From Haloterrigena alkaliphila (lineage in GTDB: Archaea; Halobacteriota; Halobacteria; Halobacteriales; Natrialbaceae), in NCBI RefSeq assembly GCF_017352155.2, contig NZ_CP071462.1, positions 682,001-746,000 of the forward strand: a stretch of 64,000 bases of DNA. Reading direction: 5' to 3'. The position numbers and the translations under genes are program-made. Positions 19,627 to 41,633 of this stretch are shown here, piece after piece (position 1 is the first letter of the stretch; each line of letters begins with the position of its first letter). The notes under the pieces are model-generated. The model saw only the letters and a list, made by a program, of their open reading frames with translations, made no database searches and was not told the DNA's origin.

Positions 19627-20718
19627 TCAGAGCGATGCATCGTATTCGACGTTGACGTTCGCCTCACCGGCCGACGAGAAATCGACGATCGATCCGTCGA
19701 ATCGGTACGCGTCTCGCTCCCCGACGCCGACGACACCGGTGACGGTTGCGCCGTCGAGCGAATCCGATTCGTCGATCGTCGCGCCGAGATACTCGGACTG
19801 ACTCACGCGGCCGTCGACCGTGAACGAGTAATTAGTGGGCCCCGACGCGTCGGTTCCATCGAACACGATCACGTGCGGAAGCGTCACGTCACCGCTGTAA
19901 TCGGCAGGATCGATCCGTTGATTCTCGAGATAGACCTGCGTGCCGCCCTCGAGGAACGTGAAATCGACCAACTCTCCTGTCAATCGGAGTCGGTGAACGC
20001 CACGTTCGATCGAGCCTTCGGCACGGCCTTCGGAGGCGACCGTCACATCGTCGCCTTCGATTACTTCGACCGACCCGTCCGACGTGAGTTGGTATTCCGA
20101 ATAGGTTCCGTTGCCGACGATCGTCACCACTTGCGACTGCTCGCCACCGTAATCGGCGGGATCGACTCGATTGCCGTTGACGTATACGCGTGCTTGTCCG
20201 GTGACAGTGAGCGTGTCCAAGTCGCCACTGAACCGGAACGCGTCCCGCCATCCGGTGAGGGATCCGGTAACGCGATTGCCGTCGATCGTATCCTCTTCGT
20301 TGATCGATGCGCCTCCATCGCGCGATTTCTCCACGGTGCCGGTGACGGTGAACTCGTACTCGCTCACGTCCGACGTCCCGATCCCGTCGAACCGAATCGT
20401 GTTCTCGAGCGACGGCTCGGACGTATCGGTACCGTCGGTTTCGCTGTCAGTTCCAGTATCGGTTTCGCTGCCGGTTTCGCCCCCGTACGCACCGATTCCG
20501 TAGCTCCCTGTCCCGTACCCGTTCGTCTCCGATGCCGAGGCGGTTCCTGCGATGAACGGGATTGCGCTCACACCGAGCAACTTGAGGACGGAGCGCCGCT
20601 CGAATCGCGATTCGAGTCCGGATCGACCGTGTGCTGCGTCGCTGTTCGACGCCGTAACCGCGTGTTCGTCATCGATTTCATCACCACTACTCGTCGAATG
20701 ATTGCCTTCGGAGACCAT
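19627..20718 (-). CDS. Tat-exported surface protein with Tyr-Gly motif and three beta-repeat domains
   Basis: A 363-residue protein. The twin-arginine signal is at 41-42 (RRSVLKLLGVSAIPFIAG, then ASA), after an unusually long 40-residue acidic N-region. A Tyr-Gly motif follows at about 66-80 (NGYGTGSYGIGAYGG), then an acidic Thr/Asp/Ser linker. The rest is three related units of about 85 residues, each starting with an xFDGxG-like strand and containing a Phe/Leu-Thr-Val core; the first two end NxxRxDPADYGG or QRIDPADYSG. The fold looks beta-rich. Function is unknown. A TATA-like AATATAA at about 20740-20747 precedes the ATG. The gene at 41190 shares the signal-plus-Tyr-Gly design. Confidence 0.75.
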   Translation of the reverse strand: MVSEGNHSTSSGDEIDDEHAVTASNSDAAHGRSGLESRFERRSVLKLLGVSAIPFIAGTASASETNGYGTGSYGIGAYGGETGSETDTGTDSETDGTDTSEPSLENTIRFDGIGTSDVSEYEFTVTGTVEKSRDGGASINEEDTIDGNRVTGSLTGWRDAFRFSGDLDTLTVTGQARVYVNGNRVDPADYGGEQSQVVTIVGNGTYSEYQLTSDGSVEVIEGDDVTVASEGRAEGSIERGVHRLRLTGELVDFTFLEGGTQVYLENQRIDPADYSGDVTLPHVIVFDGTDASGPTNYSFTVDGRVSQSEYLGATIDESDSLDGATVTGVVGVGERDAYRFDGSIVDFSSAGEANVNVEYDASL

Positions 20719-25658: not shown

Positions 25659-27137
25659 ATGATCGATGTCTCTACCATCCTCCGCGGATTCAAGGCCGAA
25701 CTTTCCGCCAAGTTCTTCTATTATCTGACGACCGGCATCGTCATCGTCTTTCTGACGAGACAGCTAGCTCCCGACGAATACGGTCGATTGTTCCTCGTCA
25801 TCTCGGTCCTCTCGATCGGACGCTTGTTCAGCAGCGTCGGACTCGCGAAGTCGACGGCCACGTACGTCTCGAACTACCTCGACACTGATCCGTCACAGAT
25901 CCCTCATATCGTTCGCAAATCGTTCCAGTATAATCTCATCACGATCAGTATCGTCGTGACGGCGCTGTTCGTTTCCGCGGGAACGATAGCCCATCTCTTG
26001 GACGATCCGACGCTGGAACCGCTTCTCCTCGTCGGAATCCTGTACATCGTCTGTGCGACGCTCTATAACTACTCTCGAGTAGTGTTACAGGGGTTCGAGA
26101 ATATCGCGCAGAGCTCGACGGTGTACGCGAGCGAGGGCGTCGGTCGATTGCTCTTCGTCGTCGCTCTCGTGGCCGTCGGCTACGGAACGCTCGGCGCGCT
26201 CGTCGGATACATCATGGGATTCGCTTTGTCCGCCGGCATCGGGTTAACGCTGTTGTTCTTGCGGACCAGCCGATACCCCTCCGCAGACGTGATGGAAAGC
26301 GGTCTTCCTCGCGATATCATCTCGTACAGCGTCCCGCTGACCGTGACCCGCGGCGCCTGGGTTCTCGAGCAGGACATCGATATCGTCATCGTCGGTTTCT
26401 TCCTGAACCCCGCTACGGTCGGCTTCTACACCATCGGCAAACAGGTCGTGAGATTCTGTACCGGACCCGCGTCGTCGATCGGCTTCGCCGTTGGTCCCCA
26501 GTACAGCGAGAGTACGGTTGCAGACGACGAGAGCGGTGCCGCTCGAGTATACGAAACCATGTTGGTCTCGGGCCTCCTCTTCTATCTTCCTGCTATTGCG
26601 GGACTCATCATTCTCACCGACCCGATCGTGACCACCCTTTTCGGACCCGATTACCGAGGCGCCGTTCCGATACTGCAGGTGTTTGCCGTCGGCATCGGTC
26701 TCCTCGCAGTAACGGAGATGACCGAAGATATTCTCGACTATCTCGGGAAGGCTACTGCTCGGGCGAAGATGAAAGCCGCAACATCGATCGGTAATATCGT
26801 GTTTACCGTCCTGTTCCTCCAGCTTCTCGGCGCTGTCGGAGCGGCGTTCGCAACCGTCCTGATGCAGTTCTTTTATACTGGCCTCTGCCTGTATCTCGTC
26901 GAATCGGAAATCGCTCTGCGCCAGCGGTATCTACTCGGAAAACTCGGGCACATCGGCGCGATTACGGCAGTCATGGCGGGTATTGTTGCCGGGCTATCTC
27001 GATATATTACAGGTGCCGTCTCACTCAGTGTAATCATAGCGTGCGGAGCGGTCTTGTGGGCCGCGCTGACGATCGGCAGCGGTCTCATCGACGTTCGAAC
27101 CGTCCTCGATACGTTCTCCAACAGTGGGAATGATTAG
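25659..27137 (+). CDS. polysaccharide/oligosaccharide flippase (MOP superfamily)
   Basis: A 492-residue membrane protein with about 12-14 hydrophobic segments and the typical opening LRGFKAELSAKFFYYLTTG. LxPDEYGRLFLVIS matches the conserved early motif of Wzx/RfbX proteins. It would move a lipid-linked sugar chain from the inside to the outside face of the membrane. LxQDIDIVIVGFFLNPATVGFY is the mid-protein family motif. It follows the beta-helix gene by 130 bp. Confidence 0.93.
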   Translation: MIDVSTILRGFKAELSAKFFYYLTTGIVIVFLTRQLAPDEYGRLFLVISVLSIGRLFSSVGLAKSTATYVSNYLDTDPSQIPHIVRKSFQYNLITISIVVTALFVSAGTIAHLLDDPTLEPLLLVGILYIVCATLYNYSRVVLQGFENIAQSSTVYASEGVGRLLFVVALVAVGYGTLGALVGYIMGFALSAGIGLTLLFLRTSRYPSADVMESGLPRDIISYSVPLTVTRGAWVLEQDIDIVIVGFFLNPATVGFYTIGKQVVRFCTGPASSIGFAVGPQYSESTVADDESGAARVYETMLVSGLLFYLPAIAGLIILTDPIVTTLFGPDYRGAVPILQVFAVGIGLLAVTEMTEDILDYLGKATARAKMKAATSIGNIVFTVLFLQLLGAVGAAFATVLMQFFYTGLCLYLVESEIALRQRYLLGKLGHIGAITAVMAGIVAGLSRYITGAVSLSVIIACGAVLWAALTIGSGLIDVRTVLDTFSNSGND

Positions 27138-27248
27138 CAGTATTTCTCTCACACGAGGTGACCATCCGGTTCAGCTGACTTTAGTACTATAATTTGTGAA
27201 TGGAATTTTTTCCACCCTCCATAACAAACAGAGGCAGCGCCTAGGGAC

Positions 27249-27254
27249 AGGAGG
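27249..27254 (+). promoter_or_regulatory. strong Shine-Dalgarno before the nucleotide-sugar dehydrogenase
   Basis: AGGAGG ends 5 nt before the ATG at 27260 and fits the archaeal 16S 3' end. This makes a leadered transcript likely. A TATA-like CTATAAT at about 27187-27193 lies 67 nt upstream. Confidence 0.6.
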
Positions 27255-27259
27255 AGAGC

Positions 27260-28591
27260 ATGAGTACTGTCTGTATCTTGGGACTGGGGGTCGTCGGCGT
27301 TCCGCAAACGATCGCATTCGATTCGGAGGGCCACGACGTGATCGGCTACGACATCGACGAACAGAAGATCGAGACATTGAAACAGGGACAAGATCCCAAC
27401 GAGGAGTTAGATTCCGAGCAGGTCGAACGGAGTGACGTCACGTTCACCGCCGATCCGAGCGTGATCCAGGGCGTCGATTACGTGATCATCACCGTCTCGA
27501 CGCCGATCGATGCCTGGAACCGACCCGATCTGAGTATCGTTTCCGACGCAGGAGAAACCGTTGGCGAACACCTCGAGAGGGGCACGACGGTCGTCCTCGA
27601 GTCGACGGTGTATCCCGGTGCGACTCGCGAGGTCCTGATACCCGCTATCGAACGGGGGTCAGGGTTCGACGCCGGATCGGAGTTTTCGGTCGGCTATTCT
27701 CCGGAACGCATCAGTCCGAACGTGAGCGGGTTCAAACACACTGCGAAGATCGTCAGCGGTCAGGACGAAGCCACCCGCGACGATATCGCATCCCTTTACA
27801 GGAGCGTTCTCGAGGAAGAGATCCACCTCGCGCCGACGATGGCGACGGCGGAAGCGGCGAAGTGTCTCGAAAACGTTCAACGAGACGTCAATATCGCGCT
27901 CGTAAACGAGTTCGCGATGGGATGTGGCGAACTCGACATCGAACTCGATCCCCGCGACGTACTCGAAGCGGCACAGACCAAGTGGAACTTCCATCCGTAC
28001 GAACCGGGACTGGTCGGCGGTCACTGCATCCCCGTCGACCCGTACTTCATGATCTCCCGATTCGAACGAAACGGATTCGCCCCCGAGATCATGCGACGCG
28101 CACGGAACGTGAACGACGAATACCCGCGGTTCGTCGCAGAACGGGTTATGAAGGAAATCGCCGGGACCGATCGAAGCGAATCGACGGGGCCCGAACGACC
28201 GACGGCGGACCGTAACCGTTCCGCGGCGTCCACCCGTCCGCGAGTGCTCGTTATGGGTATCGCGTACAAAGCGAACACGAACGACGTCCGGAACCCGGCA
28301 CTGGAACAAATGCTCGACGAGTTAGAACAGTACAACGCCGAACTGTTCGGCTTCGACCCGAACGTTCCGAACGAGGTAATCGAAGACCGGTTCGATATCG
28401 CTGCCATCGAGGACCCGGACTTCTCGGCGTACGACGCGCTGGTCGTGACGACGTTACACGACGAGTTCCACGATCTCCAGCCCCCGTCCCGGGAGTCGGA
28501 CGCCGATTCACCGGTTCTCGTCGACCTGACCGGCAATTTCTCGAGCGAAACCGCGCGAGACGAGTACGTAGCACCGACCTACCGCGTCTGA
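27260..28591 (+). CDS. nucleotide-sugar dehydrogenase (UDP-glucose/UDP-ManNAc type)
   Basis: A 443-residue enzyme oxidising a nucleotide sugar to its uronic acid with NAD. The N-terminal Rossmann domain opens VCILGLGVVGVPQTIAF. Central signatures are VVLESTVYPGATREVL, GYSPERISP and ATAEAAKCLENVQRDVNIAL. The catalytic cysteine is Cys256 in GGHCIPVDPYF. The C-terminal UDP-binding domain has MGIAYKANTNDVRNPALE. This group includes UDP-N-acetylmannosamine dehydrogenases (WecC-like), so the product could be an acidic amino sugar. The gene is followed after 4 bp by the GT2 gene, so they form an operon. Confidence 0.93.
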   Translation: MSTVCILGLGVVGVPQTIAFDSEGHDVIGYDIDEQKIETLKQGQDPNEELDSEQVERSDVTFTADPSVIQGVDYVIITVSTPIDAWNRPDLSIVSDAGETVGEHLERGTTVVLESTVYPGATREVLIPAIERGSGFDAGSEFSVGYSPERISPNVSGFKHTAKIVSGQDEATRDDIASLYRSVLEEEIHLAPTMATAEAAKCLENVQRDVNIALVNEFAMGCGELDIELDPRDVLEAAQTKWNFHPYEPGLVGGHCIPVDPYFMISRFERNGFAPEIMRRARNVNDEYPRFVAERVMKEIAGTDRSESTGPERPTADRNRSAASTRPRVLVMGIAYKANTNDVRNPALEQMLDELEQYNAELFGFDPNVPNEVIEDRFDIAAIEDPDFSAYDALVVTTLHDEFHDLQPPSRESDADSPVLVDLTGNFSSETARDEYVAPTYRV

Positions 28592-28595
28592 AACG

Positions 28596-29699
28596 ATGTA
28601 CGACGAACACACGATCGGCGTCGTGATTCCGGCGTACAACGAGGAAGGGCTCGTGGGAGACGTCGTTCGCGACGTCCCGACGTACGTCGATCGCATTTAC
28701 GCTATCGACGATCGTTCGACGGACGGCACGCGGGCGGAGATTACGGACGCAGCCGAACGGGACGCGACGAACTGGAGCACCGAGGACGGTTTCGGGGGAG
28801 GTAGTTCCCGGTACCGACTCGACGGCTCCGCAACGCTCTCCCGAAGCGGGGCCGGCCAAACGCGGTTCGACGCCCAGTTCGAAAACCGCGTCGAGACCGT
28901 CGAGCAGATCGGTCGCGTCGTTTCGATCCGTCACGCCGAGAACCGCGGAGCCGGTGGTGCGATCAAGACCGGCTATCTCGCCGCACTCGTCGACGACATC
29001 GACGTCGTCGCGACGATCGACGGAGACGGACAGATGGATCCGACGTATCTGGACCGATTTCTCGATCCGATCGTCGATGGACCGGCGGAGTATACGAAAG
29101 GATCGCGGTTCATGAACACCTCCTACAGGGAGGAAATGCCGCCGTTTCGGGCGTTCGGTAACGTCCTGTTGACGCTACTGACGAAGGTCGCGAGCGGGTA
29201 CTGGCGAATGACCGATCCGCAGAACGGGTACACGGCGATCTCCAACCGGGCGCTTCGAGAGATCGACGTCGGCGACCTGTTCGAGTACTACGGCTACTGC
29301 AACAGCGTTCTCGTCAGGCTGAACGCCAGCGATCTGCCGATCGCCGACGTCGATATTCCGGCCCTGTACGGCGACGAGGATAGCAACATCGAATACGCGA
29401 CGTACGTCAGGAAGGTGTCGCTGATGCTGCTCGAGAATTTCCTGTGGCGGCTGAAAACGAAGCAGGTCGACCGAGGGTTCTACCCGACTTCGGTACTGTA
29501 CGTCGTTGGCGCCGCGTCCATCGCGTTCGGCGCGTTACGAGCGATACAGACCCGCATTCTGTCGGACGATCGGTCGGTCTCGTCCGCGATGAGATCGGCG
29601 GTCGTATTCGCGACGGTCGGACTCCTGTCGGTACTGTCCGCGATCCTCTCCGAGTGGTTCGAATCACGGTCTCTGGAGTCGAAAATCGAATTCGAGTGA
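28596..29699 (+). CDS. GT2-family glycosyltransferase with C-terminal membrane helices
   Basis: A 367-residue protein. GVVIPAYNEEGLVGDVV is the GT2 start; the metal-binding DxD-like site is TIDGDGQMDP near 145, and the later QNGYTAIS matches dolichyl-phosphate mannose-type enzymes. Two hydrophobic segments end the protein (about 300-318 and 332-350). It would transfer a sugar to a lipid carrier such as dolichol phosphate. A non-conserved Ser/Gly-rich insert of about 55 residues separates the first strand region from RHAENRGAGGAIKTG. It begins 4 bp after the dehydrogenase gene. Confidence 0.92.
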   Translation: MYDEHTIGVVIPAYNEEGLVGDVVRDVPTYVDRIYAIDDRSTDGTRAEITDAAERDATNWSTEDGFGGGSSRYRLDGSATLSRSGAGQTRFDAQFENRVETVEQIGRVVSIRHAENRGAGGAIKTGYLAALVDDIDVVATIDGDGQMDPTYLDRFLDPIVDGPAEYTKGSRFMNTSYREEMPPFRAFGNVLLTLLTKVASGYWRMTDPQNGYTAISNRALREIDVGDLFEYYGYCNSVLVRLNASDLPIADVDIPALYGDEDSNIEYATYVRKVSLMLLENFLWRLKTKQVDRGFYPTSVLYVVGAASIAFGALRAIQTRILSDDRSVSSAMRSAVVFATVGLLSVLSAILSEWFESRSLESKIEFE

Positions 29700-29737: not shown

Positions 29738-31252
29738 CTACGGTCGATTACCGATCTTGAGCTGGTGGTCGTCGACGAACAGGTTCAGCTCGCTCGGTGA
29801 GGTGTAGCCGCCGCCGTAGTGGAGGACGGGTCCGGCGTACTCGTGGGCCATACTTTCGGTGGTTCGCCAGCGGAAGTTCGTTCGCTCGTAGGTGAGTTCG
29901 CCGTTGAGCCAACATCGAACGACTCCGTCGTAGTTCGCCCGTCCGTTCGACACGGAGTTCAGTTTGACGTACGTCTCGAGTTCGTGCCATTGGCCGCGAG
30001 GGACGCTGACGCCCCAGTACTCGGATTCTCCGTACGAGCCCGGCATGTCGAGGTGATAGGTGTACGTCAGCATGTCGTAGTGACCGCTGGGAAGGGAACT
30101 ATCGCCGCGCGCGTACAGGCGCGTCGACCAGCCGTTGTCTCCGGACGGATCGCCGCCGCCCGATCCGCCGCTTCCGGCCTCGGTGTTCAACCCGGCGTTC
30201 CAGATCCGGCAGTTCTCGGCGTCCCGCATCTGCCACGAGGGATCGAGATAGAACATCGCCCGCTGATAGAGTTCGTCGGGTTGACCGTAGCCGCGATCCG
30301 GCAACCGGACGTTGCAGTTGTCTCCCCAGTTTCTCCCGGCGGGAACGTACCCGCAAACCGACTGTTCGCCGCTGTTCGAGGCGTCTGCCGAGAGATCCCA
30401 GTTGTGTTGCCCGGAGCCGAATACATGATACTCGTCTCCGACCGAATTCAGCTGATCCGGATCGACGGTGATGTCGAACTCACCGAGTTCGGGTTCGTCC
30501 GCTTCGACTACGACGTCCTCGTAATGCTGGCCCGTGTACGGATGCGTCTCGGATTGACGGACGAAGTCCAGTCGGAGGTTCTGGCTACCCGTCTCCTGCA
30601 TCCAGACGGCCCAGTAGTCGCCGTCGCGACCGGTTCCGAGCGTTTCGATCGTTCCGAGTTCGTCTCCGTCGTCGTAGAGCCAGGCCTTGAGACCGTCGTC
30701 GGCGCCCCAGTAGAGGACGACGTCGTACCAACGGTCGGCCTCCAACGGTACGTTCGTCGACGTGAGCGTCCGCCACGTCGATCCGTCGGACCGATCTGCA
30801 ATACGGAACTGGTTTTGGTCCCAGTCGACGAACACGCCGTAGTTTTGGAAGACGGTCGGATCGTCGCGGCCGAATTCGAGCGACACGTACGATGCGCCCG
30901 TCCCGGAGTAGACGGCACCGCTAACGAACTCGCCGCCCCGCCGAATCGCGCCGGGGAAATCGTCCGCGCCCGCTCGAAGGGCAGACCCCGCTTCCCGGTA
31001 GGCGGACGCGCTACCGCGGAACGCGGTATCCGTGGCGGTCGCGTGACCGCTCGAACCGGTCCAGTTCGCGGCGACGCCGTCCTCGAAGTCGTCGATAAGC
31101 GCATAGTCGCTGGTTTCGTCGTCCGTCCAGACGACGCGTAACGCGTCGCCCGATCGCACGCGGACTTCGGAGACGTTCTCGAGTGCACCACCGTAGCGAG
31201 CGCGGATTTGCTCGATATCGGTGAGCGATCCGTCGAATCGTATCTTACTCAT
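29738..31252 (-). CDS. polysaccharide lyase 14-like protein with N-terminal beta domain
   Basis: A 504-residue protein. The N-terminal 45 residues (MSKIRFDGSLTDIEQIRARY) resemble the small N-terminal domains of phage-tail-like proteins. Residues 50-215 look like a concanavalin/LamG-type jelly roll (LIDDFEDG, then WYDVVLYWGADDG). Residues 270-504 resemble family PL14 (alginate/glucuronan lyases): CNVRLPDRG near 310, DNGWSTRLYARG, HELETYVKLNS and GVVRCWLNGELTYER, ending in LHYGGG. The C-terminal half is clearly related to the protein at 40106. No signal peptide is visible, which is odd for a lyase. Its start overlaps the upstream 119-residue gene by 8 bp. Enzymatic activity is inferred only. 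Confidence 0.6.
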   Translation of the reverse strand: MSKIRFDGSLTDIEQIRARYGGALENVSEVRVRSGDALRVVWTDDETSDYALIDDFEDGVAANWTGSSGHATATDTAFRGSASAYREAGSALRAGADDFPGAIRRGGEFVSGAVYSGTGASYVSLEFGRDDPTVFQNYGVFVDWDQNQFRIADRSDGSTWRTLTSTNVPLEADRWYDVVLYWGADDGLKAWLYDDGDELGTIETLGTGRDGDYWAVWMQETGSQNLRLDFVRQSETHPYTGQHYEDVVVEADEPELGEFDITVDPDQLNSVGDEYHVFGSGQHNWDLSADASNSGEQSVCGYVPAGRNWGDNCNVRLPDRGYGQPDELYQRAMFYLDPSWQMRDAENCRIWNAGLNTEAGSGGSGGGDPSGDNGWSTRLYARGDSSLPSGHYDMLTYTYHLDMPGSYGESEYWGVSVPRGQWHELETYVKLNSVSNGRANYDGVVRCWLNGELTYERTNFRWRTTESMAHEYAGPVLHYGGGYTSPSELNLFVDDHQLKIGNRP

Positions 31253-31604
31253 TATTCACGTAGAACACGATGTCACCGTCGTTCTCGGTCGGGTCGGCCG
31301 TCGAATCGTTCGTGACGTAGATGTTCCCCGGGAGCGAATCGATCGGCTCCGTCCGATTCACGACGTCGCCGTCCAGGCGGGTTCCGGTCGGCGCGCGGGT
31401 CCACTTGGATCCGTCGCCCAGATAGACGTTTCCGGTATCCGTCGCGAAGAACTTCGCCCCCGCTTTCGGCTGATAACTGTTCAGTTCGCCCTCGGAATCG
31501 CGAATTTCGACGTCGGTATCGAGCTGTTCGAAATTGCTGTTCAGAGGAAGATGCCAGTCGGTCGCACCTTTTTCGGGCGCATCGTAGTCGTGGTTGTCTG
31601 TCAT
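31245..31604 (-). CDS. small tail-fibre-head-like protein
   Basis: A 119-residue acidic protein. APEKGATDWHLPLNSNFEQL resembles the opening of tail-fibre and glycan-binding fibre proteins of viruses, and KFFATDTGNVYLGDGSKW is a typical second segment. To my knowledge the same sequence type appears as the N-terminal part of some haloarchaeal beta-helix proteins; I could not check this. It has no signal peptide. It precedes the PL14-like gene with an 8-bp overlap, so the two are co-translated and probably act together. A TATA-like TATTATAG lies near 31650. Confidence 0.65.
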   Translation of the reverse strand: MTDNHDYDAPEKGATDWHLPLNSNFEQLDTDVEIRDSEGELNSYQPKAGAKFFATDTGNVYLGDGSKWTRAPTGTRLDGDVVNRTEPIDSLPGNIYVTNDSTADPTENDGDIVFYVNNE

Positions 31605-31755: not shown

Positions 31756-32499
31756 GGCACTGTCTAGTTCTGTACCTCCTCAATCGGGGTCTTTCCATCG
31801 AGAGCTTGATGCGGTCTCTGATGGTTGTAGTAATGCATAAACTGTTCAAGCCACTCGCGGACGCTCGACCGACTGCCCACCCACGAATTATGGAAGCGGT
31901 CGATACGCATTTTGAGGGTGTGAAACCACTTTTCGATGAGGTTTCGGTCGGTATAGTTGACCTGACCGCTCAAACCTAATCGAGCAAGGGCAGTCCGGTA
32001 GCCGAATTGATCAACGAGAAACTCAACATCCGAGAGATCGTGTTTCTCCGCGAGTCGATGGAGAAACGCAGCCGCCGGATCGGTGCCATGCCGCCCAAAT
32101 AACGCAACATCGAGAATCAACTTTGTCTCGATGTCTATTGCAGCGTACAACCAAGACCATTCGCCGTTGATCTTGACAGCGGTTTCGTCGACAGCGACCC
32201 GCGACGGCGATGCCGTCGGCGGGTCGCGTCCGCTGTCAGCCAGCCGATGAACCCAGTTCCAAACCGCACCATGAGAGCGTTCAACGCCTAATTCAGCGAG
32301 AATCGTTGTTGTCTCCCGAAGCGAACAACCGGTCTGATGGAGGCGGACGGCGAACGCCCTGACGGGCGTCGCCGTCCGCTCGTTCTCCCAAGATTCTTCT
32401 AAATCCGCCTCATAGTTCTCGCTGAGCAGGTCTGCGAGCATCTAACCAATTCACTCAACGACCTGCTCACTTCTCAAATTGACTCAACTAGACAGTGCC
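31756..32499 (-). mobile_element. complete IS6-family insertion sequence (744 bp)
   Basis: The element is bounded by perfect 14-bp inverted repeats: GGCACTGTCTAGTT at 31756-31769 and AACTAGACAGTGCC at 32486-32499. It is flanked by an 8-bp direct repeat GGAAGCGC at 31748-31755 and 32500-32507, the target duplication size usual for IS6. One transposase gene fills it. Perfect ends and duplication point to a recent insertion. It sits in an AT-rich gap between the PL14-like unit and the FemAB-like gene and does not break a gene I can defend. Confidence 0.95.
31764..32441 (-). CDS. IS6-family transposase
   Basis: A 225-residue DDE transposase. A short helical N-terminus with a helix-turn-helix (CSLRETTTILAELGVERSH) precedes the catalytic core. 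The three acidic residues fall in SRVAVDETAVKING, EFLVDQFGYRTAL and TDRNLIEKWFHTLK. The ending YNHQRPHQALDGKTP is standard for the haloarchaeal IS6 branch. It is full length with no frameshift, and its stop codon lies inside the left inverted repeat, so the element is probably active. Confidence 0.93.
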   Translation of the reverse strand: MLADLLSENYEADLEESWENERTATPVRAFAVRLHQTGCSLRETTTILAELGVERSHGAVWNWVHRLADSGRDPPTASPSRVAVDETAVKINGEWSWLYAAIDIETKLILDVALFGRHGTDPAAAFLHRLAEKHDLSDVEFLVDQFGYRTALARLGLSGQVNYTDRNLIEKWFHTLKMRIDRFHNSWVGSRSSVREWLEQFMHYYNHQRPHQALDGKTPIEEVQN

Positions 32500-39256: not shown

Positions 39257-40105
39257 ATTTCTCGCCGAGTAGTTGTCATCGGTTCTTAGTTATGCAGAAT
39301 GTACGTTACTATTCTGATATGAAATGCGAAACTGACCTCGAGAGCGAGCGATGCGGTCCGATCATCTCGTCGCTGGTTCGGACTCAGCGTGATACAACGC
39401 AATCGATTTCGCTTCGATTCTGACGTACTCGTCTGTCCGGTATTTCGCTCCGTAGTCACCGTGAGTCCGACTGTCGACCGAATTCGAGTAATCGGGCCAC
39501 CCGGGCGTAGCGCTCTTTCCGACAGTTTCGGTTCTTCCACTGTCGTATCCGCTTACGGAGGCTTCCTCGAGCGCTCTCGGTCGACCGCGTCCGTAGGCGG
39601 TGATTCCGGCGAGCAAAACAACGACGGCGACCTCGGCTTCAGCGTCAGAAACCCGGATCGAGACGTCGTAGCATCCGGATTCGAGCCCGTTTGGTGGATC
39701 GGTCCGTTTCATCGGAACGCGGGACGCCACACCCGTCGTCACCGAAGAGGCCCGTCCCCTATTCGATGGGACTCGCCGGCGGCCCGTTGCTTCTCGACGA
39801 TCGAACGGCCTCGAGTCGGCGTCGACCAAACGGATCGCTGCGTCCATCGAGACGTCCGGGGCTTTCGAGCCAGTGTTCGACGGCTTCGATCACGCTAGTC
39901 ATACGCGATATCCCGCAGTAAAATCGTTTTACGACCCCCTCGCCGCTTCGGATACCGCACTCGTCGGATGGCCGGTCTCGTCGCGTCAACGGCGACAACC
40001 GAAGAAAAATACGGTTATAAAAATAGGATATAATTATACACTGGATTAGTTGAATGCGATTAGAAGAGAAAGTTGATGGCGGTAATACCGAATTACCGGT
40101 CCAGG
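39257..40105 (-). other. 849-bp gap with possible decayed minus-strand gene
   Basis: Reading minus from the ATG at 39902 gives MTSVIEAVEHWLESPGRLDG and stops after 47 codons at 39759. Another minus frame then stays open from 39847 to 39362 and contains a hydrophobic stretch (VAVVVLLAGITAYGRG). Haloarchaeal glycan loci contain proteins that start in a similar way (SxxEAVExWxES), so this may be one broken by a frameshift. Evidence is weak. A strong AT-rich promoter block lies at 40015-40038. Confidence 0.3.
40028..40038 (+). promoter_or_regulatory. TATA-like block before the Tat PL14-like gene
   Basis: ATATAATTATA lies 68 nt before the ATG at 40106 and 38 nt before an alternative ATG at 40076. 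A second run, TTATAA, is at 40015-40020. Confidence 0.45.
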
Positions 40106-41008
40106 ATGGAACGCGATTACTCGCGATCGAACGAAGTCAGAGAGGCGACGGGAACCGGTCGACTGGGCCGGCGATCGTATCTGAAGGCGTCCGGGACGGC
40201 GCTGGCGACACTCGGCGGACTGTTCGCCGGCGTCGGCGGAGCGACGGCGAGCAGCGAGGGCCGCACCGTCGACCTCAATTACGATGCGTGCGACGCTATA
40301 ACCGACATCTATTCGGTCGAACGGCCCGAGCGCGCACAACTCGTCGAGCAGGGAACGACCGCTTCGGAAACGACGCTAGAGCTAACCGTTCCACAAAACG
40401 AGAGCTGGGGAACGAACACCACCTTCGATCTGCCAGCCAACGGATTGGGGGAACCGACCGAACTCTATCAGTCGATTCGAATGCGGCTCGACGAAGAATT
40501 CTCGTTTCGGGAGCCGGGTGATAACTGTCGAGTCTTCAACGCTGGACTCAACTCGAAGTGGGGAACGTCGGGATCCGGAACCGACGGTCCACCCACCGGA
40601 GCCGACGGCTGGTCGTCCCGATTGTACGTCATCGACAACGGATCGCGAACTGGATCGTTCGGGCTCAACGTCTACACGTACCACATGGATCAGCAAAGCG
40701 GACCCGGAGAGGAAGAGGTACTCGAAGAGGACCTGTTTTCTCCCGGCGAATGGCACGATATCGAAACGTACGTGCGAATGAACACCGTCGACGGAACTCG
40801 GGCGAACGCGGACGGCGTCGTTCGCGTCTGGGTCGACGGCGCGAACGTCTACGATCGAGGCGACTTCAGATGGACGACGACCCCCGACCAGGGTCACCAT
40901 CGTGCCGGCCCCGTCGCTCACTGGGGCGGTCCGGAATCACCGTCGCGAAACTCGTGTGTCTATTACAAAGACCACCGACTAGTAGTCGGTTCGAATCCGC
41001 GGAACTGA
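40106..41008 (+). CDS. Tat-exported polysaccharide lyase 14-like protein
   Basis: A 300-residue protein from the ATG at 40106; an ATG at 40076 would add 10 residues. A Tat signal has Arg22-Arg23 (LGRRSYLKASG) and a likely cut after GGATAS. The mature part is a PL14-like jelly roll: WGTNTTFDLPANG, EPTELYQSIRMRL, DNCRVFNAGLNSKWG, DGWSSRLYV, HDIETYVRMNTVDGT, GVVRVWVDGANVYDRG, then VAHWGG. It aligns with the C-terminal half of the protein at 29738. The family cleaves uronic-acid polymers by beta-elimination; the substrate here may be the host glycan made by this locus. No catalytic residue can be assigned with certainty. Confidence 0.65.
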   Translation: MERDYSRSNEVREATGTGRLGRRSYLKASGTALATLGGLFAGVGGATASSEGRTVDLNYDACDAITDIYSVERPERAQLVEQGTTASETTLELTVPQNESWGTNTTFDLPANGLGEPTELYQSIRMRLDEEFSFREPGDNCRVFNAGLNSKWGTSGSGTDGPPTGADGWSSRLYVIDNGSRTGSFGLNVYTYHMDQQSGPGEEEVLEEDLFSPGEWHDIETYVRMNTVDGTRANADGVVRVWVDGANVYDRGDFRWTTTPDQGHHRAGPVAHWGGPESPSRNSCVYYKDHRLVVGSNPRN

Positions 41009-41189: not shown

Positions 41190-41633
41190 GTGACCAGTAA
41201 GAAGGGCAGAATAACACGTTTCTATATCAGTACGAACTCCAATTCGACTCAGGATCCGGACGAGGACGGTCAGCGTTCGGTGATCAGTCGCCGAACGTCA
41301 CTCAAATTCCTCGGCGTCGCCGCCGTCCCGGTCGCTGCACGCCAACTGTCGAATGGTGACGATTCGAGCGGCATCAACTACGGTAACGGGGAATACGGTA
41401 TCGGAGGGTACGGCGGTGAACCGGACGAACCGACGGAGAACGAGGTGACCACCGTCAATAGCGAGAATGCGGACGAATCACCGACGATTCACGAACGCGA
41501 TGTGGCGGAAGATAGTTCGTCGACTCCAGACCCCTATCACAGTAACTGGGCCGTTTTGGATCCAAACGACGCTTTCGAACGGGATCTGTCGAAGTGTTCG
41601 AACTCGATACCCGCAACGGACAGAAAAAAGTGA
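41190..41633 (+). CDS. small Tat-exported protein with Tyr-Gly motif
   Basis: A 147-residue protein with a GTG start at 41190. A Tat motif (SRRTSLKFLGVAAVPVAA, Arg34-Arg35) follows an acidic N-region. Residues 62-76 hold INYGNGEYGIGGYGG, the same design as in the protein at 19627. The remainder is acidic and Ser/Thr-rich, without the beta repeats seen there. It may be a short surface protein or the shortened relic of a longer one. No family recognised. Confidence 0.55.
   Translation: MTSKKGRITRFYISTNSNSTQDPDEDGQRSVISRRTSLKFLGVAAVPVAARQLSNGDDSSGINYGNGEYGIGGYGGEPDEPTENEVTTVNSENADESPTIHERDVAEDSSSTPDPYHSNWAVLDPNDAFERDLSKCSNSIPATDRKK

Follow-up and report, generated by a model that had tools for sequence, protein, structure and literature searches.

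A fibre-head and lyase-fold gene pair in a haloarchaeal glycan locus: a possible surface fibre associated with Tat-exported partners

In a 64,000-nucleotide stretch of Haloterrigena alkaliphila DNA (contig NZ_CP071462.1, positions 682,001 to 746,000; hereafter the window), two overlapping genes encode a 119-aa adaptor with a fibre-type head and a 504-aa protein with a uronan-lyase fold. We tentatively favor, at a little short of even confidence, the reading that they form a composite fibre of the host cell surface that acts on glycan and is exported or docked through Tat-signalled partners carrying a short YG tag. This reading draws on what the sequences show in several ways, including the anatomy of the two proteins, their lack of signals, their glycan context, the fusions and split pairs found in other genomes, and the co-occurrence and adjacency of related modules with Tat-YG genes.

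Results

Both genes lie on the minus strand. The adaptor (P0002), consisting of a conserved segment, a trimer-head-like domain and a beta tail, occupies 31604-31245 (ORF list, Pfam and model), and the 504-aa cargo protein (P0001) occupies 31252-29738. An 8-bp overlap, ATGAGTAA at 31245-31252 on the same strand, holds the stop of the adaptor gene and the start of the larger gene. A frame check placed both reading frames and the overlap exactly where the initial annotation had put them. The absence of a recognizable signal peptide, also claimed there, holds for both proteins: upstream of the start, the 504-aa frame has 1 in-frame codon before a stop and the 119-aa frame has 2, so that a signal peptide is impossible in a longer frame of either protein.

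As had been proposed, the pair sits among host glycan genes, with a flippase, a UDP-glucose/GDP-mannose dehydrogenase and a GT2 (25659-29699, plus strand; Pfam) adjoining it on one side. The dehydrogenase fits a uronic-acid glycan. On the other side, Pfam identified a transposase, a GNAT protein, an ATP-grasp-like protein (weak match) and a methyltransferase, and farther away are GT4, PIG-L and a Tat-signalled beta-helix lipoprotein. A lipoprotein gene of that type (PF13229; 24222-25529) adjoins the flippase and shares the locus with the pair. The transposase is a DDE (IS) type at 31764-32441, on the strand of the pair and directly upstream, 159 bp from the adaptor start. Its position raises the question of whether the pair is a decayed or non-expressed remnant of transposition, which we consider very improbable in view of two intact frames of protein-like composition, the retention of conserved residues and the recurrence of the overlap or near-overlap in other split pairs. 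GC content is 62.1% for the pair and 62.7% for the window; the 159-bp gap between adaptor start and transposase (from 31605) is AT-rich, with 38.4% GC.

The first 32 residues of the adaptor (31509-31604, minus strand) form a conserved segment, NHxYNTPxxGTxDWHxPLNxNFxxLD, defined from an alignment of 62 sequences in which P10, G13, W17, P20, L21, N22, N24 and F25 are invariant. This segment is partly common to phage fibre N-termini and to C-terminal modules of other proteins. Residues 33-70 (31395-31508, minus strand) correspond to a head of the Mtd_N or phage-hyaluronidase type, based on an AF2 model, VIA and PF18454. We refer to segment and head together as the DWH module, a label coined in this analysis. 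The description of the small protein as fibre-head-like was supported by a match to Pfam Mtd_N (PF18454; E 1.6e-4, 22.0 bits), which falls under the curated cut-off of 26.3, and by a structural search against tail fibres, in which all matches were weak. For residues 31-70, modeled with pLDDT block means of 86-95, the search returned Mtd (1yu0; VIA Z 4.2, rmsd 1.5 Å over 41 residues, a low Z that may reflect a common arrangement), phage hyaluronidase fibres (Z about 3) and the collagen XVIII trimerization domain (Z 4.8). Because all of these Z values are below 8, we regard them as support for a fibre-type head and not as proof. They suggest, from a single-chain model, that the adaptor would be a trimer-forming head. 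Searches of PHROGs and NCBIfam with the adaptor and the 504-aa protein gave no match, a PDB sequence search gave no match for the 504-aa protein and chance-level rows for the adaptor, and a head profile run against the PDB likewise gave chance-level rows. By eye, short adaptors have a similar tail (GDIVFYVNNE in the window, GDIWIQTE in L033, GDIWFDTSEQ in L088 and DTYIRFKTE in L124).

In the 504-aa protein, residues about 110-220 (30593-30925, minus strand) are beta-rich and probably form a jelly roll, as judged from model secondary structure of low confidence, and residues about 284-504 (29741-30403, minus strand) match a PL14/PL36/PL20-type uronan-lyase fold by profile and structure search. 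The protein scored just below the cut-off of 27 for PL14 PF21294 (26.9 bits, E 4.9e-6), and a profile built from it and its relatives reached PL36/PL14 lyase structures with E-values of 1.5e-9 (Aly36B) and 5e-5 (vAL-1, AkAL30). Because the model of the full protein was poor (mean pLDDT 47.6), we used only its sequence-supported lyase part, which matched PL36/PL14/PL20 structures with Z scores of 12-13.6 (13.0 for 5gmt, 12.6 for 3a0n and 13.6 for 6kzk). Here we presume that vAL-1, AkAL30, Aly36B and glucuronan lyase represent families PL14, PL36 and PL20. These values bear out the PL14-like domain of the initial annotation, and the jelly roll named with it would follow from the secondary structure.

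The same annotation had spoken of a depolymerase, a term that is doubtful here. In the profile alignment, R349 aligns with Lys143 of Aly36B, which we take to be catalytic from the titles of mutant structures, and an Arg in place of this Lys argues against ordinary lyase activity in a protein with the PL36/PL14 fold. The protein retains S376, R378, Y397, Y399 and H400. By eye, Arg also occupies the catalytic-Lys position in the Tat-signalled PL14 paralogues of this genome; Lys is present there in three single-chain fusions of other genomes (L070, L079 and L175). Judging from these residues, the protein could be either a lyase that uses Arg or a uronan-binding protein. It shares the jelly-roll lyase fold and the S/R and Y-x-Y-H residues of PL14/PL36/PL20 lyases but differs from them in Arg349, in the additional head and jelly roll, and in having no signal.

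The initial annotation had suggested looking for the same pair in other haloarchaea, and it recurs both as single-chain fusions and as split pairs. Fusions that unite the head with the PL14 domain occur in at least four genomes according to tblastn and the sequences themselves (L032 from Halorussus halophilus, 376 aa, at the same place as L058; L070, 376 aa; L079, 378 aa; and L175, 343 aa). Another, L028 (406 aa), is absent from the tblastn list and was recognized by eye. Natronosalvus amylolyticus has a split pair in the same order, with proteins of 63 and 535 aa, a 4-nt overlap and PL14 similarity of 34.6% over 217 residues in the larger protein. In N. hydrolyticus the two proteins are 63 and 540 aa; tblastn with the 504-aa protein returned nothing there at E 1e-2, yet the residues align. 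Adaptors are also paired with beta-helix cargos (L033, L088, L104, L116, L118 and L119). This pattern of fusion and splitting suggests that the 119-aa and 504-aa proteins form one composite protein, presumably as a physical complex.

Across the haloarchaeal class, the head was found in 104 of 391 genomes, an occurrence beyond chance, and in 18 of the 125 genomes of the source family. Plasmid matches (19 of 72,556 records) were all haloarchaeal, with Haloarcula hispanica and H. marismortui among them (pNG700 included), and in a draw from the phylum 14 of 294 genomes had a match, 10 within the class and 4, weak and partial, outside it. Two or more glycan genes accompanied 31 of 44 full-length DWH loci compared to 3 of 39 random 20-kb stretches; the corresponding counts were 7 of 16 for loci from family genomes, 0 of 11 for short contigs and 38 of 71 for all loci together. 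The gene clusters near DWH genes included GT4 (34 loci versus 2 control stretches), flippase (32 versus 1) and GT2 (29 versus 1), names that are our reading from the window and annotated members. The head was also located in 62 named loci. Among 62 DWH proteins, 8 carry an S74 fibre chaperone, 8 Mtd_N and 5 a beta helix, and PHROGs of tail spikes or tail fibres are matched by several. The module rides on fibre- or spike-like proteins without signals, mainly in glycan loci. Six other proteins with no visible signal, of beta-helix and unassigned types (L125-L130), carry the DWH segment at the C-terminal end, followed by coiled-coil-like heptads. A glycosidase or GH26 name first considered for L126, L129 and L130 was dropped when Pfam searches of L126 and L130 gave no family.

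These results also bear on viral origin. Four protein queries run against 50,697 phage records came back empty, scans of IMG/VR yielded no confirmed relative, and four IMG/VR loci share only residues about 2-32, a segment of roughly 30 residues. Because the searches turned up no virus that carries the full head, the idea of a viral module as such, raised in the initial annotation, is not supported; its other suggestion, a domesticated device, fits a head that is widespread in haloarchaeal glycan loci and has no match in the phage records. A related possibility is that a haloviral tail-fibre or tailspike module, from a provirus, tailocin or injection system, entered the glycan locus and that the pair is what remains of it. 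The Mtd/hyaluronidase-type head, the S74 chaperones in 8 of 62 relatives, the tail-fibre PHROG matches and the gp19-like tube genes that adjoin some relatives are consistent with such an origin, but the empty phage search, the short segment shared with viral contigs, the glycan context of the loci and the absence of a sheath gene from the genome make it quite unlikely.

Two specific versions were rejected for this genome. A diversity-generating retroelement (DGR) target was ruled out by the absence of reverse transcriptase (PF00078, 0/1; control positive, 3/14), and a contractile tail or injection system by the absence of a sheath gene (PF04984, 0/1; control positive, 3/14). A gp19 search of this genome had no match, but the control was likewise without match, so that this result carries no weight. 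Elsewhere, stand-alone genes similar to the T4 gp19 tail tube lie directly upstream of DWH proteins (L035:7541-9216, L097, L114, L121, L109 and L115), identified by PF06841 in L035 (E 6.5e-29) and by sequence similarity seen by eye in the other loci. At several of these loci a Tat protein with FG/YG repeats follows, and the annotated 16 kb of L035 names no sheath or baseplate gene.

We next considered where the pair acts, using home-made text filters for Tat signals and YG tags. All five PL14 paralogues of this genome have a Tat signal, including one in the locus of the pair (40073-41008, plus strand) that serves as an internal control for the extracellular site of action. Apart from the one in this locus, three Tat-signalled PL14 paralogues lie within about 7 kb of one another at a different site in the genome (L192, C1:40000-59900). 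By comparison, Tat signals are absent from all 55 DWH proteins, while Tat-signalled homologues exist for 13 DWH beta-helix proteins (the best match sharing about 54-59% identity across at least 353 residues), and the two beta-helix versions stand side by side in 5 loci (44-56% identity). Two unrelated cargo families that otherwise leave by Tat are thus signal-less exactly when they wear the DWH module, which on sequence grounds indicates that signals on DWH proteins are replaced, not lost. Because all PL14 paralogues and the homologues of the DWH beta-helix proteins are Tat-signalled, an extracellular site of action is favored. The same data, together with fibre and tail-spike folds that are typical of extracellular action, stand against a cytosolic pair that modifies or proofreads lipid-linked uronan chains before flippase export. 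We judge that alternative improbable, even though the missing signal peptide and the neighboring flippase, sugar-nucleotide dehydrogenase and GT2 would suit it.

The YG tail, a C-terminal YGxxGYGxxGYGG (for example, DEFGESGYGSHGYGG), ends the gene directly upstream of the DWH gene in 27 of 55 named loci, 25 of them with a Tat signal. The remaining loci comprise 2 Tat genes with near-variant tails, 14 upstream frames with neither feature and 12 cases with no upstream frame. By eye, many of the upstream Tat-YG proteins have a lipobox and a Ser/Thr-rich stretch. Of 391 genomes, 67 contained a strict YG DNA pattern, and all but 3 of these are DWH-positive (64 with both, 40 with DWH only, 3 with YG only and 284 with neither, ignoring genome kinship). 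Adding a second YG pattern changed these counts to 70, 34, 8 and 279, again ignoring kinship, so that the two patterns together miss 34 of the 104 DWH-positive genomes and pick up 8 of the 287 DWH-negative ones; a reversed-pattern control was slightly enriched too (10, 94, 11 and 276). Based on the 150 DWH sites listed, a DWH domain follows on the same strand, after a gap of 12-152 nt, for at least 46 of the 76 strict YG sites, and at least 62 of the 76 lie within 20 kb of a DWH site. A permissive YG filter (39 of 72 loci versus 3 of 39) includes chance matches inside beta-helix lipoproteins and was not relied on.

In this genome, a YGG-type pattern occurs at 3 sites; 2 of them are in the window, separated from the pair by 9.2 and 9.8 kb. 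Both belong to Tat-signalled proteins identified by pattern scan, which are candidate partners: one at 19627-20718 (minus strand) with NGYGTGSYGIGAYGG just after the signal, and one of 147 aa at 41190-41633 (plus strand) with NYGNGEYGIGGYGG in the same position. They are non-adjacent to the pair, and their YG sequence follows the signal instead of forming a C-terminal tail. Both Natronosalvus genomes, and G015 of the same family, encode similar Tat-YG proteins at a distance of about 14-36 kb from their pair or fusion. Among loci with a C-terminal DWH segment, L125, L126 and L127 also encode Tat proteins with C-terminal YG tails. Tiny Tat-signalled proteins of 58-62 aa consist of little beyond signal and YG tail (L092:3230-3403, with similar ones in L094, L098, L102, L105, L108 and L117). 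Two divergent Tat-YG genes (L229:4076-5434) belong to a genome, G115, with no DWH domain detected, and YG tags may therefore have other uses.

Such uses are central to the reading in which the pair is the same surface protein, the YG tag is operon company only, the sole role of DWH segment and head is to trimerize the fibre, and export takes another route; the tags might then serve in Tyr glycan attachment or S-layer contact, for example. Coiled-coil-like heptads after the DWH segment in the C-terminal modules, YG proteins in some DWH-negative genomes and the distance of 9-10 kb to the YG genes of the window all speak for it. The close spacing of YG tails and DWH domains, their co-occurrence across genomes and the mutual substitution of DWH and Tat signals on two cargo families speak against it, and we consider it unlikely, though it merits serious weight.

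Discussion

The surface fibre that we tentatively favor would work as follows. A trimeric 119-aa head or adaptor would hold the 504-aa jelly-roll and uronan-lyase-fold protein, and the pair would act outside the cell, most likely on the uronic-acid-containing glycan of its locus, as a binding protein or, should Arg be able to stand in for Lys, as an enzyme that cuts or trims this glycan. The DWH module would substitute for an export signal: the YG tag of a Tat-exported partner would recognize the folded fibre, which would then be carried out with that partner or held by it at the surface. Such partners would be a concrete candidate for the unknown export route that the initial annotation had considered. 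Trimerization, the two-protein complex, YG binding, Tat hitch-hiking, substrate and activity are steps that we infer from the gene data.

In Escherichia coli, subunits without a signal are known to leave as hitch-hikers through Tat, whose substrates there are 20-70 Å wide (PMC4273604). A trimer as large as the one proposed may exceed this range. As in the hitch-hiker complexes PaoABC and HybOC, the subunit would be folded and signal-less, and in relatives its gene adjoins that of a putative Tat-signalled partner; unlike in those complexes, the link would be a short YG tag serving many unrelated cargos.

A more general proposal is that haloarchaea possess an undescribed docking and export system, in which a phage-fibre-like DWH module at either end of glycan-active fibres and enzymes that lack signals is recognized by YGxxGYGxxGYGG on Tat-exported stalk proteins, so that these folded cargos hitch-hike and stay displayed at the surface, with the pair in the window as a split-cargo version. 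We regard this as possible but distinctly uncertain. A search of the open-access literature turned up no description that we recognized of the DWH module or YG tag. In its way of working, the proposed pairing would resemble cohesin-dockerin systems: a module at either end of varied glycan-active proteins would be matched by a tag on surface proteins.

Phage proteins offer close parallels to the head. Mtd, the receptor-binding protein of a Bordetella phage, has a small beta head at the fibre N-terminus that the adaptor model resembles, but the adaptor is a host gene in a glycan locus, with a lyase-fold cargo and in a genome without reverse transcriptase. Phage hyaluronate lyases (tail fibres of the HylP2 type) similarly join a fibre-type head, here a weak match, to a polysaccharide-active part, whereas the pair is host-encoded by two genes, its cargo has a PL14/PL36 fold and no virion genes were seen.

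The pair would be a variation on known parts (fibre head, lyase fold and Tat hitch-hiking); the DWH/YG pairing, were it confirmed, would be novel. If this pairing holds, about one-quarter of the haloarchaeal genomes sampled would carry a portable code for surface display, viral fibre parts would have been turned into host surface machinery, and many genes of haloarchaeal glycan loci that are labelled 'hypothetical' or 'tail fiber' would gain a function.
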